From NCBI RefSeq assembly GCF_000215995.1, contig NC_015680.1, forward strand, positions 1,501,160-1,565,159: a stretch of DNA of 64,000 nt, written 5' to 3'. Each line of letters starts with the position of its first letter. The stretch's first letter is position 1. The notes below the pieces were generated by a model. That model did no database searches. It was not told the origin of the DNA and worked only from the letters and a program-made list of their open reading frames with translations. The translations under genes and the position numbers were made by a program. This document shows, one piece after another, positions 3,581-46,512 of the stretch. The stretch is from Pyrococcus yayanosii CH1 (GTDB lineage Archaea > Methanobacteriota_B > Thermococci > Thermococcales > Thermococcaceae).

Positions 3581-4384
3581 ATGCGGTCCCCCCGATGGAA
3601 GGACGGAAGACTTGGCCTGCCCATAATGGAAGCCGTTAGGCTATTTCCTGAGCTTGGTAGATACCTCGACGAGAGAGGAAGGCTTGATTTCTCAAATCGG
3701 GAGGCGCGCATCCTTTATAACAAAGCGGTGGCTAAGGCCCTCTTCGGCCTCGACATCGAGTATCATCCCCGGGGCCTTGTGACCCCTCCAATCTCGCGCT
3801 ACATCTTCCTGAAGATATTCCTACGGGGTGGCGAGAAGGTTCTGGAAATCGGCACTGGCCACACGGCGATGATGGCGTTGATGGCAGAGAAGCTCTTCAA
3901 CTGCATCGTTACCGCCACGGAGCTCGACGACGAGTTCTTCGCCTACGCTAAGCTCAACGTGGAAAGGAACAACGCGAAGGTGAGACTCATAAAGAGCAAC
4001 GGCGGGATAATCAGGGGCGTCGTGCCTCCAGAAACCTTTGACGTAATATTCTCTGCCCCTCCCTACTATGAGAGACATGTAAGGGGCGTCCTCACGGAGA
4101 GGGAAGCCGTTGGTGGCGGGAGGTTCGGGGAAGCATTCTCCATTAAACTCTTGGAGGAAGCTGTGGACTACCTGAGGCCGGGAGGTAAGGTGGCCCTATT
4201 TCTCCCAGATAAGGGCCCGCTAATAGAGGCGGTGAAAGAGAAGGGAAAGGAGTTGGGCTATGAGATAAGGGATATCAGATTTAAGGTAGGAACGAGGTGG
4301 AGGCATGCCCTCATAGGGACTCGGGCCGTGGGCGTTTCCTCACCGCTCGGTGGAGGTGCTCTCTCTTCATCGTCCCTCGATTAG
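3581..4384 (+). CDS. Class I SAM-dependent methyltransferase, N6-adenine type
   Basis: This 267-residue protein has a Rossmann methyltransferase core. Motif I is VLEIGTGHTA, followed by an acidic TATELDD loop, and motif IV is SAPPYYE, the (N/D/S)PP(Y/F) form typical of N6-adenine or related amino methyltransferases. It resembles RlmF/METTL16-type RNA methyltransferases, but the RNA target is unknown. The start at 3581 lies 38 bases after the M20 gene; the open frame extends upstream without a good start. The last 18 bases overlap the 3' end of the convergent CBS gene, so the Ser-rich C-terminus may be loosely constrained. Confidence 0.75.
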   Translation: MRSPRWKDGRLGLPIMEAVRLFPELGRYLDERGRLDFSNREARILYNKAVAKALFGLDIEYHPRGLVTPPISRYIFLKIFLRGGEKVLEIGTGHTAMMALMAEKLFNCIVTATELDDEFFAYAKLNVERNNAKVRLIKSNGGIIRGVVPPETFDVIFSAPPYYERHVRGVLTEREAVGGGRFGEAFSIKLLEEAVDYLRPGGKVALFLPDKGPLIEAVKEKGKELGYEIRDIRFKVGTRWRHALIGTRAVGVSSPLGGGALSSSSLD

Positions 4385-10886: not shown

Positions 10887-11480
10887 ATGAAGGTCTATCA
10901 CCTTTTCAGCGGAGGCAAGGATTCGTCGCTGGCAGCTTGGATACTAAGTCGGCTTGGCTACGAAGTTAAGCTTGTGACCGTGACCTTCGGTGTTCTTGAT
11001 GCGTGGAAGTATGCGAGAGAGACCGCGGAGAGTCTCGGCTTTGATCATGAGGTCATGGAACTCCCCAGAGGAATGCTCGAAAGGGCCGCCGCCATGTGCA
11101 TCGAGGATGGCAGGCCGGGAAGAGCAATCCAGTTCCTCCATGAAAGGGCTCTAGAAACTCTGGCCGCCAGAAGGGGTGTAGAGAGAATCAGCGACGGCAC
11201 GAGAAGAGATGATAGAGTTCCCTTCCTCGATCTGCCGAAAGCCCGCTCCCTCGAAGATAGATTCAACGTCGCCTACATAAGGCCCCTCCTCGGTCTCGGC
11301 CACAGGACGATAAGGGAGCTCGTTGAGAAATTATTCCTCGTTGAGATCCGGGAAAGCGAAGAGATTAAAAAGTCGGACTACGAGGTCGAACTCAGACACA
11401 TCCTCAGGGAGCTTGGTCATGATCCAGCCCGGATATTTCCCAAGCGGCACTTGCAGTCGAGGGTGCTGGGATGGAGATGA
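10887..11480 (+). CDS. PP-loop ATP pyrophosphatase-like protein
   Basis: This 197-residue protein opens with MKVYHLFSGGKDSSLAAW, the SGGxDS PP-loop of the adenine nucleotide alpha-hydrolase superfamily. Further parts include ISDGTRRDDRVPFLDLPKA, which resembles the substrate-adenylating region of ExsB or tRNA-thiolation relatives. The partner substrate is not recognisable. The ATG is probably leaderless, with CTAAAAGG about 25 bases upstream. Its stop codon is shared with the C box of a C/D sRNA candidate immediately downstream. Confidence 0.75.
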   Translation: MKVYHLFSGGKDSSLAAWILSRLGYEVKLVTVTFGVLDAWKYARETAESLGFDHEVMELPRGMLERAAAMCIEDGRPGRAIQFLHERALETLAARRGVERISDGTRRDDRVPFLDLPKARSLEDRFNVAYIRPLLGLGHRTIRELVEKLFLVEIRESEEIKKSDYEVELRHILRELGHDPARIFPKRHLQSRVLGWR

Positions 11481-11528
11481 TGACCTCGGCAGGTTGCTGA
11501 GCGGTGATGACGATCTTGAGTGCTGATT
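11475..11528 (+). ncRNA. C/D box sRNA candidate overlapping a stop codon
   Basis: All four boxes are present in order: C box ATGATGA (11477-11483), D' box CTGA (11497-11500), C' box GTGATGA (11504-11510) and D box CTGA (11523-11526). The guide before D' is 13 nt and the guide before D is 12 nt, with a 3-nt gap between D' and C', as in archaeal box C/D RNAs that guide 2'-O-methylation. The C box includes the TGA stop of the PP-loop gene, and the D box ends against the 3' end of the convergent gene. No target was assigned. Confidence 0.85.
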
Positions 11529-30141: not shown

Positions 30142-30471
30142 TCCTCTCACCCCCACTAGGTTCTATTACATTTCTGGGATGGTTTGGAGATGCTTTTAAA
30201 GTTTTTTGGTTCAATGGAAAGAAATCAGCGGGATTTCGTGGATTTATAGCGAAATCGCCTGGTCGTTTTCGATTTAAACTGGCATTTAATGACTTTTTTG
30301 GGAAAGTTGCGTTGAGCCCCGGTCTACTTGAATTTAAAGCTAAAAAATGTTTATTAAACAGTCTAGACCCGTCCGCAATTCGTCATCCCGACGCGAGGAG
30401 TAGAGTAAATCCTAAAAACCTCAAAGTCCTGAAATGGGCCAGTAGTAATCCTCAGGCTTTAGGTGGCGGAC
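30142..30471. other. Intergenic spacer between speD and DUF92 gene
   Basis: This AT-rich stretch of 330 bases holds the speD promoter near 30193-30201 and, close to the DUF92 start, AGGTGG. An inverted repeat GATTTCG/CGAAATC (30232-30238 and 30250-30256, 11-base spacer) surrounds an ATTTATAG word. I see no convincing small gene in either strand. Confidence 0.5.
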
Positions 30472-31170
30472 ATGGAGTACACGATACCGCTGCTCGCAGC
30501 CCTTGGCTACATCAGCTACAGAATGGGGGCCCTAAACCTCTGGGGTTCCCTTACGGCCGTCCTTCTCGGCTATGCAGTTTTGACACTTGGCGGTTTCTTA
30601 GTCTTCGGAGCCATGCTTGCCTTCCTAGTAATGGGAACTGCGGCCACTCGCTTTCGGGCTCGCGAGAAAATGGCTCGCGGCCTGCTCGATGAGGTTCAGG
30701 GGAGGGGAATGGGCAACGTCCTTGGCAACGGCCTTGGTCCTGTTCTCTTCCTGCTCCTTGAGCACGCCACTAGCGCCGACTATGGGTGGGCTGCCGTGTT
30801 CTCCGCCATAGCCACGGCAAACGCCGATACCCTCGCGAGCGAGATAGGTAAGGTGTTCGGGAGGAAGCCGAGGCTGATAACGAACCTTAGGCCCGCGAGG
30901 CCGGGGGAGGAGGGGGCCATCTCGCCCGAGGGAGAGCTCGCGGCTCTCCTGGGGGCACTCTCCATAGGTCTGTTCGCCCTTCCCCTGACGTCCCATGACG
31001 CCAGCATGCTGGTAGCCGTGACCCTTGGTGGGTTTGCCGGTGCGAACGTTGACAGTCTCATCGGGGCGGCCCTTGAGAAAAAGGGTTATATAGGGAATAA
31101 CGGGACGAACTTCCTCGCAACACTTGCAGGCGGCCTTGTTGGAATGGCTACATTCCTCCTCCTGGCGTGA
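30472..31170 (+). CDS. DUF92 integral membrane protein (VTE6-like)
   Basis: This 232-residue membrane protein has about six helices and the DUF92 signatures GRGMGNVLGNG, ANADTLASEIGKVFG and FAGANVDSLIGA. Plant VTE6 of this family is a phytyl-phosphate kinase; the archaeal role, perhaps with isoprenoid phosphates, is unproven. ATG 30472 follows AGGTGG with five bases between; a GTG at 30463 is in frame. Its TGA stop lies inside the C box of a C/D sRNA candidate. Confidence 0.85.
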   Translation: MEYTIPLLAALGYISYRMGALNLWGSLTAVLLGYAVLTLGGFLVFGAMLAFLVMGTAATRFRAREKMARGLLDEVQGRGMGNVLGNGLGPVLFLLLEHATSADYGWAAVFSAIATANADTLASEIGKVFGRKPRLITNLRPARPGEEGAISPEGELAALLGALSIGLFALPLTSHDASMLVAVTLGGFAGANVDSLIGAALEKKGYIGNNGTNFLATLAGGLVGMATFLLLA

Positions 31171-31216
31171 TGAAAAGGCGGATTGCCGAGCGGTGAGGAG
31201 GACCTTAGGGGCTGAC
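31167..31216 (+). ncRNA. C/D box sRNA candidate with possible 23S rRNA target
   Basis: Boxes in order are C GTGATGA (31167-31173), D' CCGA (31186-31189, one change from CTGA), C' GTGAGGA (31193-31199, one change) and D CTGA (31212-31215). Both guides are 12 nt. The guide before D, GGACCTTAGGGG, is complementary to CCCCUAAGGUCC, which resembles the conserved CUAAGGUCCC segment of 23S rRNA; the fifth-base rule would place the methyl on the U. The C box shares the DUF92 stop codon, and the D box ends just before the next gene's ribosome binding site. Confidence 0.75.
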
Positions 31217-31229
31217 CGGGGTGATATGA

Positions 31230-31856
31230 ATGGGTGACTATTTCACATGTCCAGAGTGTGGTGGCGAGGACGTCGAAGTCCTCAGGGAGAGGGGTAGGGA
31301 GGTAACGCTCAGGTGCAACGAGTGCGGCCACGTGTGGGTAATGACACTGCCAAAGCTTCTAAAGGTTCCGGTTATCGTCAGCAAGCACGAAAGGAGCTTC
31401 AGGAAGTATGCGGAGCTTCCCGAGGACGAAGTCGTGAAGGTTGGCGACGTGGTCGAGCTCAAAGATGATGAGGTCAGGATAACGGGAATAGAGCTTCCTG
31501 AGGGTAAGCGGGTCAGGAAGGCCAAGGCAAGTGAAATCGGAGCCCTCTGGGGCGAGAGCCTTCGCTATCCGAAGGTCTTCGGAGTCTCCATATACCTACC
31601 GGGGGGTATAACCCAATCCTTCAAGGTCATGGCCGACAGGGACGAGGAATTCGTAATCGGGGAGGTCATCGAGGTGGGGGGATATACATTCAGGGTCGAG
31701 ATGATAAAGACCGAGAGGAAGCTCATGAGGAGTGGCAAAGCCAAGGCTGATAAAATAGTCAGGCTCATGGGCCATGCAATTAGGGGAAGGGCCCGTAGGA
31801 AGCTGAAGATTTACGAGGGGTACGAAAGCGTTGGGGGGAGGGGGAATGAGGGTTGA
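31230..31856 (+). CDS. HVO_0476 family zinc finger protein
   Basis: This 208-residue protein has an N-terminal zinc ribbon (CPECGG...CNECGH, residues 7-33) followed by basic and beta-rich regions ([15 protein letters not shown]). It ends in a Lys/Arg-rich helix ([16 protein letters not shown]). The family is conserved in Euryarchaeota but of unknown function; RNA or DNA binding is suggested by the ribbon and the basic tail. Its last 11 bases overlap the pxpA start in another frame, so it is probably co-transcribed with pxpABC. Confidence 0.8.
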
Positions 31857-45100: not shown

Positions 45101-46453
45101 ATGAGGGTTCTGTTGCTTGGCTTCGAGTATTTACCCGTTAAGGTTGGTGGACTGGCAGAGGCCCTTACGAGTCTTGCAAATGCTCTTGCCGAGCTCGGCC
45201 ATGAGGTCTTGGTGTTTACGCCGTCTCATGGGAGGTTTGCGGGACAGTCTCTTGGGGTTAAGGTGAGGGCTTTTGGAGAGATTGTTCCCCTAACGGTGCA
45301 TGAGGAAGGCGATAATCCTCGTGTCTTTAGGCTTGGTGGCGGTCTGCTTGACAGTGGGGACGTTTATGGGCCTGGGTGGGAGGGTCTGCTGAGAAAGGCG
45401 GTTCTCTTTGGAAAGGCGAGCGTGGCTCTGCTTAATGAGCTCTTAAAGGAGGAGGAGCTTCCAAATGTGGTCCATTTCCACGACTGGCATACAGTCTTTG
45501 CAGGGGCTCTGATAAAAAAGCACTTCCGTATTCCAGCTATCTTCACGATTCACAGGCTCAACAAGGCGAAGATTCCGGCCTATTATTTCCATGAGGCTGG
45601 TCTTCCAGAGTTGGCTCCCTATCCTGATATAGACCCGGAGCACGCTGGGGGCTATTTCGCGGACATAGTGACGACGGTGAGCAGGGGCTACCTCCTCGAC
45701 GAGTGGGGCTTCTTCAGGAACTTCGAGGGCAGGGTCACTTACGTATTCAACGGCATTGATTGCTCCTTCTGGAGCGAGGCTTGCCTCGAAGGGTCTAGGT
45801 GCGATAGGAAGCAGAGGATCCTTGAGAAGCTGGGCTTGGAGGATGGTGTAATGTTCATGTTTATAGGCCGCTTCGACAGGGGGCAGAAGGGGGTTGACGT
45901 CCTCCTAAGGGCCATAGAGATGCTTGCCGAGAGGCATCCGAGGGAGTTTCGGCAGATGAAGTTCATAATTATTGGGAAAGGAGACCCTGAGCTAGAGAAG
46001 TGGGCGAAGGTTCTAGCGGAGAGGTTTCCCAACGTGAAGACTATCACGGAAATGTTGTCGAGAGAGTTCGTCAGGGGGCTTTACGGAAGTGTCGATTTTG
46101 TAATTGTTCCCTCTTACTTCGAACCTTTTGGTCTCGTTCAGATGGAGGCCATGTGCCTCGGGGCAATACCCATAGGTTCGGCGGTGGGGGGAATAAGGGA
46201 CACCGTGATAACCCTTGACGATAACCCGGAGAGTGCGACGGGATTCCTTGTTCCACCAGGTAGTGTTGAAGCTTTGGTGGATGCAATCCTCCGGGCATTC
46301 AAGCTTTACGTGGAGAACCCATCTCTCATAGAAAAACTCAGGGAGAACGGGAAGAAGAGAGCGAAGGAGTTCACTTGGGAAAGGGCGGCTCGCCGCTACT
46401 TGAGGGCCTATAAAGGTAGTGTGGACAGGGCCTTTGAATTCATAGTTGAGTAG
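45101..46453 (+). CDS. glgA: Glycogen synthase (GT5)
   Basis: This 450-residue GT-B enzyme has the N-terminal sugar-nucleotide loop KVGGLAEALTSLANALAEL, HFHDWHTVFAGAL and VTTVSRGY, and the C-terminal FIGRFDRGQKGVDVLLRAI and YFEPFGLVQMEAM with the family's catalytic Glu. It lengthens alpha-1,4-glucan using ADP- or UDP-glucose. The ATG at 45101 follows GGGGGTAATC, with TTTTAAT about 35 bases before. It ties in with the alpha-glucan locus at 18-28 kb. Confidence 0.93.
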   Translation: MRVLLLGFEYLPVKVGGLAEALTSLANALAELGHEVLVFTPSHGRFAGQSLGVKVRAFGEIVPLTVHEEGDNPRVFRLGGGLLDSGDVYGPGWEGLLRKAVLFGKASVALLNELLKEEELPNVVHFHDWHTVFAGALIKKHFRIPAIFTIHRLNKAKIPAYYFHEAGLPELAPYPDIDPEHAGGYFADIVTTVSRGYLLDEWGFFRNFEGRVTYVFNGIDCSFWSEACLEGSRCDRKQRILEKLGLEDGVMFMFIGRFDRGQKGVDVLLRAIEMLAERHPREFRQMKFIIIGKGDPELEKWAKVLAERFPNVKTITEMLSREFVRGLYGSVDFVIVPSYFEPFGLVQMEAMCLGAIPIGSAVGGIRDTVITLDDNPESATGFLVPPGSVEALVDAILRAFKLYVENPSLIEKLRENGKKRAKEFTWERAARRYLRAYKGSVDRAFEFIVE

Positions 46454-46512
46454 TCAGCACCGGAGTATCCCCTCACCTCTCGGGAGCGGCCAAGCTCATC
46501 ATCCACTTTGGG

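Follow-up and report, generated by a model that had tools for sequence, protein, structure and literature searches.

A predicted double-guide C/D box sRNA whose box C holds the stop codon of a DUF92 gene in Pyrococcus yayanosii CH1

An sRNA at the end of the DUF92 gene

We examined a window of 64,000 nucleotides (the whole stretch of DNA analysed) from the genome of P. yayanosii CH1. Within it, the end of a gene for a DUF92 membrane protein coincides with the start of a short element bearing the boxes of an archaeal C/D box sRNA, and a gene for a zinc finger protein follows on the same strand. The features of the locus are as follows.

30472..31170, plus strand: gene for a DUF92 integral membrane protein, TIGR00297-like (PF01940, E 8.9e-53)
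31160..31165, plus strand: 5' strand (TCCTGG) of a possible 6-bp terminal stem, within the final DUF92 codons
31167..31215, plus strand: body of the C/D box sRNA, box C to box D, from letters read directly, conservation and pattern counts
31167..31173, plus strand: box C, GTGATGA, holding the DUF92 stop TGA (31168-31170)
31174..31185, plus strand: D' guide, AAAGGCGGATTG, 12 nt, of which GGCGGATT pairs with AAUCCGCC of 23S rRNA (predicted Cm2417)
31186..31189, plus strand: box D', CCGA, one change from CTGA
31193..31199, plus strand: box C', GTGAGGA, one change from RTGATGA
31200..31211, plus strand: D guide, GGACCTTAGGGG, 12 nt, of which GACCTTAGGG pairs with CCCUAAGGUC of 23S rRNA (predicted Um2390)
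31212..31215, plus strand: box D, CTGA, letters read directly
31216..31221, plus strand: 3' strand (CCGGGG) of the possible terminal stem, near a Shine-Dalgarno-like stretch, GGGGTGAT
31230..31856, plus strand: gene for a CPxCG-related zinc finger protein (PF19769, E 1.5e-46)

The order of the sRNA is GTGATGA-AAAGGCGGATTG-CCGA-GCG-GTGAGGA-GGACCTTAGGGG-CTGA, with the 3-nt linker GCG between boxes D' and C'. The first possible start of the DUF92 open reading frame is GTG at 30463, which would give 235 amino acids, and ATG at 30472 would give 232; the protein ends in ...FLLLA, and its stop codon is the first UGA of box C. An earlier inspection of the window from its letters (the sequence-only reading) had noticed the shared stop codon and the single-base departures of boxes D' and C', and had placed the sRNA at 31167-31216; these observations hold, the last of them to within one base. 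The zinc finger gene begins 14 nt past box D, and the candidate terminal stem around the sRNA is not kept in every relative.

Judged by its sequence, the element at 31167-31215 is an archaeal C/D box sRNA of canonical form. It has the terminal boxes RUGAUGA and CUGA, internal D' and C' boxes with a short linker (relatives carry the canonical forms CTGA and GTGATGA), and guides of the usual length of about 12 nt between the boxes, here 12 and 12. It resembles the known archaeal C/D box sRNAs, including the Pyrococcus sR families (Gaspin 2000; Omer 2000; Dennis 2015, PMC4644070), in box order, in spacing and in its length of about 50 nt, and it is like them a double guide with two rRNA targets no more than 100 nt apart. 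It differs in that no Rfam 15 family matched it at gathering score: the nearest, sR9 (RF01312), gave 27.2 bits where 36 are needed, and has different guides. The shortness of C/D motifs and the missing Rfam family might suggest that boxes and complementarity meet here by chance at a locus with no sRNA, a reading that we regard as already refuted by conservation, as dozens of genomes keep the sRNA together with the pairing of each guide to its target, and the C-D'-D pattern has 27 matches in the P. yayanosii genome, 24 of them with all four boxes, against 4 for a reversed control.

Predicted targets in 23S rRNA

The P. yayanosii genome is a single contig of 1,716,818 bases, with the 23S gene at G000:C1:1483942-1486981, and both guides find complements in this gene. 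The D guide forms 10 contiguous Watson-Crick pairs within GCCCUAAGGUCG (nt 2386-2397), both end bases being unpaired; an A:U pair lies at D+5, where the rRNA nucleotide is U2390, so that the predicted modification is Um2390 (near E. coli G2286 by pairwise 23S alignment). The D' guide forms 8 contiguous pairs at AAUCCGCC, 27 nt beyond the D target, with C2417 at D'+5 and a predicted Cm2417 (near E. coli C2313 by the same alignment). Both predicted sites lie just 3' of what we take to be the helix 80 P-loop region of 23S. The sequence-only reading had correctly assigned the D guide to 23S with a U as its target; the segment it named, CUAAGGUCCC, was close to the true one without being exact, the pairing runs over 10 contiguous bases where it had given 12, and the second target was missed.

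When the letters of the guides were shuffled, 1.0% of trials gave 10 contiguous pairs and 8.1% gave 8; both, no more than 100 nt apart, arose in 123 of 2,000,000 trials. The best evidence that both 23S targets are real comes, we believe, from the extended pairing predicted in relatives. There the D' guide reads CTACGGCGGATTC, a perfect 13/13 complement of the same 23S segment, and across the relatives the D' guide is perfectly complementary over 11-13 nt and the D guide extends to 11-12 nt, at the same two segments. Because the relatives' guides pair over longer stretches with these segments, both targets appear to have been kept by selection. The sRNA very probably directs two methylations of 23S, the predicted Um2390 and Cm2417.

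A guide-target duplex of at least 9 bp has served as a criterion, relaxed for double guides, and double guides with targets no more than 100 nt apart are normal (262 of 489 sRNAs; PMC4644070). The D duplex exceeds this length, and since the D' duplex of P. yayanosii has only 8 bp and falls under it, relatives give a stronger prediction of Cm2417 than this genome does. A RiboMeth-seq dataset exists for P. furiosus (GSE153501; PMC7758197). We consider it highly improbable that the D guide aims instead, or in addition, at another 23S segment, GCCGUAAGGUCC (nt ~1353): 10 of its 12 positions pair with the guide, but an internal mismatch adjoins the target nucleotide, whereas the match at 2386-2397 is contiguous, has the D' target 27 nt away and is the one that relatives lengthen. 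Other 23S matches of the D guide, 8-of-12 or gapped, were dismissed for their mismatches.

Stop codons in C boxes

Tripp et al. (2017), as summarized in PMC7994747, reported host stop codons inside 25% of archaeal C/D sRNAs, almost half of them in box C. The sRNA at 31167 falls within that class, having a same-strand host stop in one of its boxes, box C, with the host identified as DUF92 by Pfam. Among pattern-selected four-box sRNAs in four genomes, with heuristic ORF calls and one duplicate removed, we counted 24, 16, 26 and 21 sRNAs per genome, of which 5, 1, 6 and 1 had a C-box stop. The total of 13/87 (15%) compares with about 12% implied by the published summary (25% x almost 50%), and all 13 use the first UGA. 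From the class as PMC7994747 describes it we see no essential difference, except that here one sRNA is traced across a family, either overlapping its neighbor or preceded by a spacer with a TATA-like box.

The window itself contains three C-box stops, the one at 31167-31215 and two others, which are listed here with one further Rfam match.

4319-4375, minus strand: sR43 match (Rfam RF01128), ACGATGA C box, with the stop of a CBS-domain gene at 4367-4369
11477-11526, plus strand: C/D sRNA with a C-box stop, host gene DUF7411
46452-46506: sR32 match; a gene may end 13 nt upstream

The first two resemble the sRNA at 31167 in that the C box holds the stop of the upstream gene, and differ from it in guides and host genes; in sR43 the stop is the second UGA of the box, the first reading CGA. 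Elsewhere in the same genome, at 266993-267129, two C/D sRNAs stand in tandem with about 40 nt between them. This pair (L035/L034) is conserved (orthologues L124, L094/L095 and L150/L151), and its first member has a C-box stop only in P. yayanosii.

The sequence-only reading had counted two such sRNAs in the window and seen in them a repeated way of placing sRNAs at gene ends. The recurrence is real, in the window and across the four genomes, but it had already been published and is largely due to the UGA within the C box. That reading had also proposed to judge the rate of overlap against random placement near gene ends. By that measure the excess is plain, as 13 of the 44 sRNAs that have the end of a same-strand gene close by lie precisely at offset +1, where uniform placement expects about 0.3; yet uniform placement is the wrong null, and its rejection says nothing of mechanism, because the C box itself supplies in-frame UGAs. 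When sRNA families with a stop inside were grouped by hand, the stop lay in the C box in 11 of 14, against one third of run-ins at +1 under a random-frame null. This suggests that stops fall in the C box more often than in later boxes, but the excess is not evidence for a mechanism, because open reading frames entering in the other frames would gain many residues.

Conservation beside DUF92 and the state of the overlap

A BLAST search with a 92-nt query found matches in 35 of 61 Thermococcaceae genomes, and these ended at query nt 49-50, the sRNA boundary: the 49-nt sRNA is conserved across genera and its flanks are not. This search under-detects, as it matched none of the genomes of group g6, which carries the sRNA. 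We also surveyed DUF92 loci, found by DNA pattern and Pfam searches, and obtained 64 distinct Thermococcaceae loci. The sRNA lies at DUF92 in 58 of them, in 57 no more than 40 nt away; the remaining one (L076) has it 376 nt downstream, after another gene. The DUF92 stop falls exactly in box C in 25 of the 58 sRNA-bearing loci, comprising all 8 of the window's genus (g1), all 7 sRNA-bearing loci of g6, 5 of g2 and 5 in named contigs, and it lies 9-40 nt upstream of the sRNA in 32. The overlapping and non-overlapping states switch at least 5 times on the DUF92 protein tree. Groups g2, g5 and g6 may correspond to the Thermococcus kodakarensis, T. barophilus/paralvinellae and T. litoralis/sibiricus groups, respectively; the sRNA of T. 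paralvinellae (L072) is identical to the g5 type.

The synteny has exceptions. In g3 (L155/L182, genome G003) the orthologous sRNA follows a different gene, whose stop precedes the C box by about 5 nt, and in g4 (L179 in G009; L184 in G004) it is tens of kilobases from DUF92. Because these orthologues and that of L076 lie elsewhere, the guide RNA appears to outlive its genomic context.

Two loci carry damaged copies. In one g6 genome (L183; G024:C1:1752000-1754700, locus 273-2226) an element is inserted within the sRNA, just past box C at GG, and encodes a TnpB-like protein and a serine recombinase whose N-terminus is MerR-like, an element of IS607 type by our reading of the sequence; the remnant of the C box is still the DUF92 stop codon, in what is a natural interruption of the guide RNA. 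In a g2 genome (G056; L186/L177) the sRNA is truncated: its C box and the core of its D' guide persist at the DUF92 stop (GGCGGATGATGAAACGGCGGATTCCC), and the half that bears the D guide is missing; GACCTTAGGNNCTGA was not found elsewhere in that genome.

The spacer, where there is one, has a recognizable content. All 18 loci with a spacer of 38-40 nt have a TTTTAAAA/TTTAAGAA element right after the stop, about 30 nt before the C box, the position expected of an archaeal TATA box that serves an sRNA start; none of the 25 overlapping loci has TTTWAR at that position. In a slightly wider interval, -38..-20, this TATA-like motif occurs in 24/32 non-overlapping and 0/25 overlapping loci, a contrast of limited phylogenetic independence, the tree supplying only 4-5 separate changes (sign test p 0.25). 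In the four genomes surveyed above, a TATA-like score of at least 7/8 was reached by 2 of the 13 sRNAs with C-box stops and by 37 of the 74 others (Fisher p 0.03). Such matches are not proof of promoters. A TATA-like motif has been noted in 20% of archaeal C/D sRNAs, and flanks are described as dispensable for their maturation (Tripp 2017, as summarized in PMC7994747).

At the P. yayanosii locus there is no TATA-like box at the right distance from the sRNA. The TATA-like TTATATAG about 75 nt upstream, within DUF92, was dismissed, being too far away and encoding the conserved KKGYIGNN motif. Because the sRNA lies between same-strand genes and has no such box at the right distance, it is most likely cut from the DUF92 mRNA in this organism and not transcribed alone. 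According to the account in PMC7994747, most archaeal C/D sRNAs derive from longer transcripts.

Our preferred reading, to which we give a probability of about 0.9, is that this is an ordinary archaeal double-guide C/D box sRNA, likely processed from the DUF92 mRNA, whose C box UGA ends DUF92. L7Ae, Nop5 and fibrillarin would bind the sRNA, and the resulting RNP would 2'-O-methylate U2390 and C2417 of 23S by the D+5 rule; RNP protection and trimming would free the sRNA from the mRNA, and translation of DUF92 would end at the first UGA of the C box. Stop sharing would arise whenever the spacer between gene and sRNA is little or none, and it can do so with no special mechanism, because RTGATGA has two in-frame UGAs that catch an open reading frame in one of three frames. 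Nothing here needs a special mechanism of placement.

Two other accounts of the overlap deserve mention. A proposal by Tripp et al. for overlapping genes, published as related in PMC7994747, has the C box and the sRNA born from a stop codon, the UGA seeding the k-turn. UGA does belong to both boxes C and D, but we judge this origin unlikely for the present sRNA, as its guides and boxes are conserved with or without the stop overlap and it also occurs away from DUF92 in g4 and after another gene in g3. Moreover, in several overlapping g2 genomes the last two glycine codons of DUF92 (...GG*) are the sRNA's own 5' GGCGG stem, an arrangement that looks as if DUF92 had run into a pre-existing sRNA.

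We also think it quite unlikely that stop sharing is itself selected, whether because L7Ae and k-turn assembly at the stop couple termination of DUF92 to release of the sRNA or through mutual regulation. Fixation of the overlap in g1 and in the sRNA-bearing g6 loci, always at offset +1, would fit such a role, as would the frequency of that offset among the 44 sRNAs, but the C box sequence allows no offset other than +1 when an open reading frame enters in that frame. The repeated changes of state on the DUF92 tree and the orthologous sRNAs lying 13-70 nt from the stop in other genomes speak against it, and in reporter tests 3' overlap was neutral or slightly negative (Tripp 2017, as reported in PMC7994747).

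The ordinary sRNA of our preferred reading is, then, a well-supported new example of a described arrangement and not a new kind, and it reveals no new mechanism. The small addition made here is that sharing the stop and having a promoter of its own look like alternatives for the sRNA. We tentatively suggest, as a possibility that may well prove wrong, that one orthologous sRNA can switch between them. Somewhat speculatively, the spacer of 38-40 nt would hold the TATA-like box in one state, and in the other, where the spacer is absent, the C box would become the stop and the sRNA would have to be released from the mRNA. Intermediates, or a third state, would be represented by the two g2 loci whose spacer is -14, by the -21 locus, where the TATA-like box is too near, and by the g5 loci.

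The guide RNA described here is conserved, has two predicted methylation sites in 23S and lacks an Rfam family. Its loci form a clean natural series, the same RNA being either equipped with a putative promoter or fused to the stop codon of its host. Such a series would allow the published idea that C/D sRNA biogenesis is plastic to be tested on orthologues of a single RNA, in species of Pyrococcus and Thermococcus that can be cultured.
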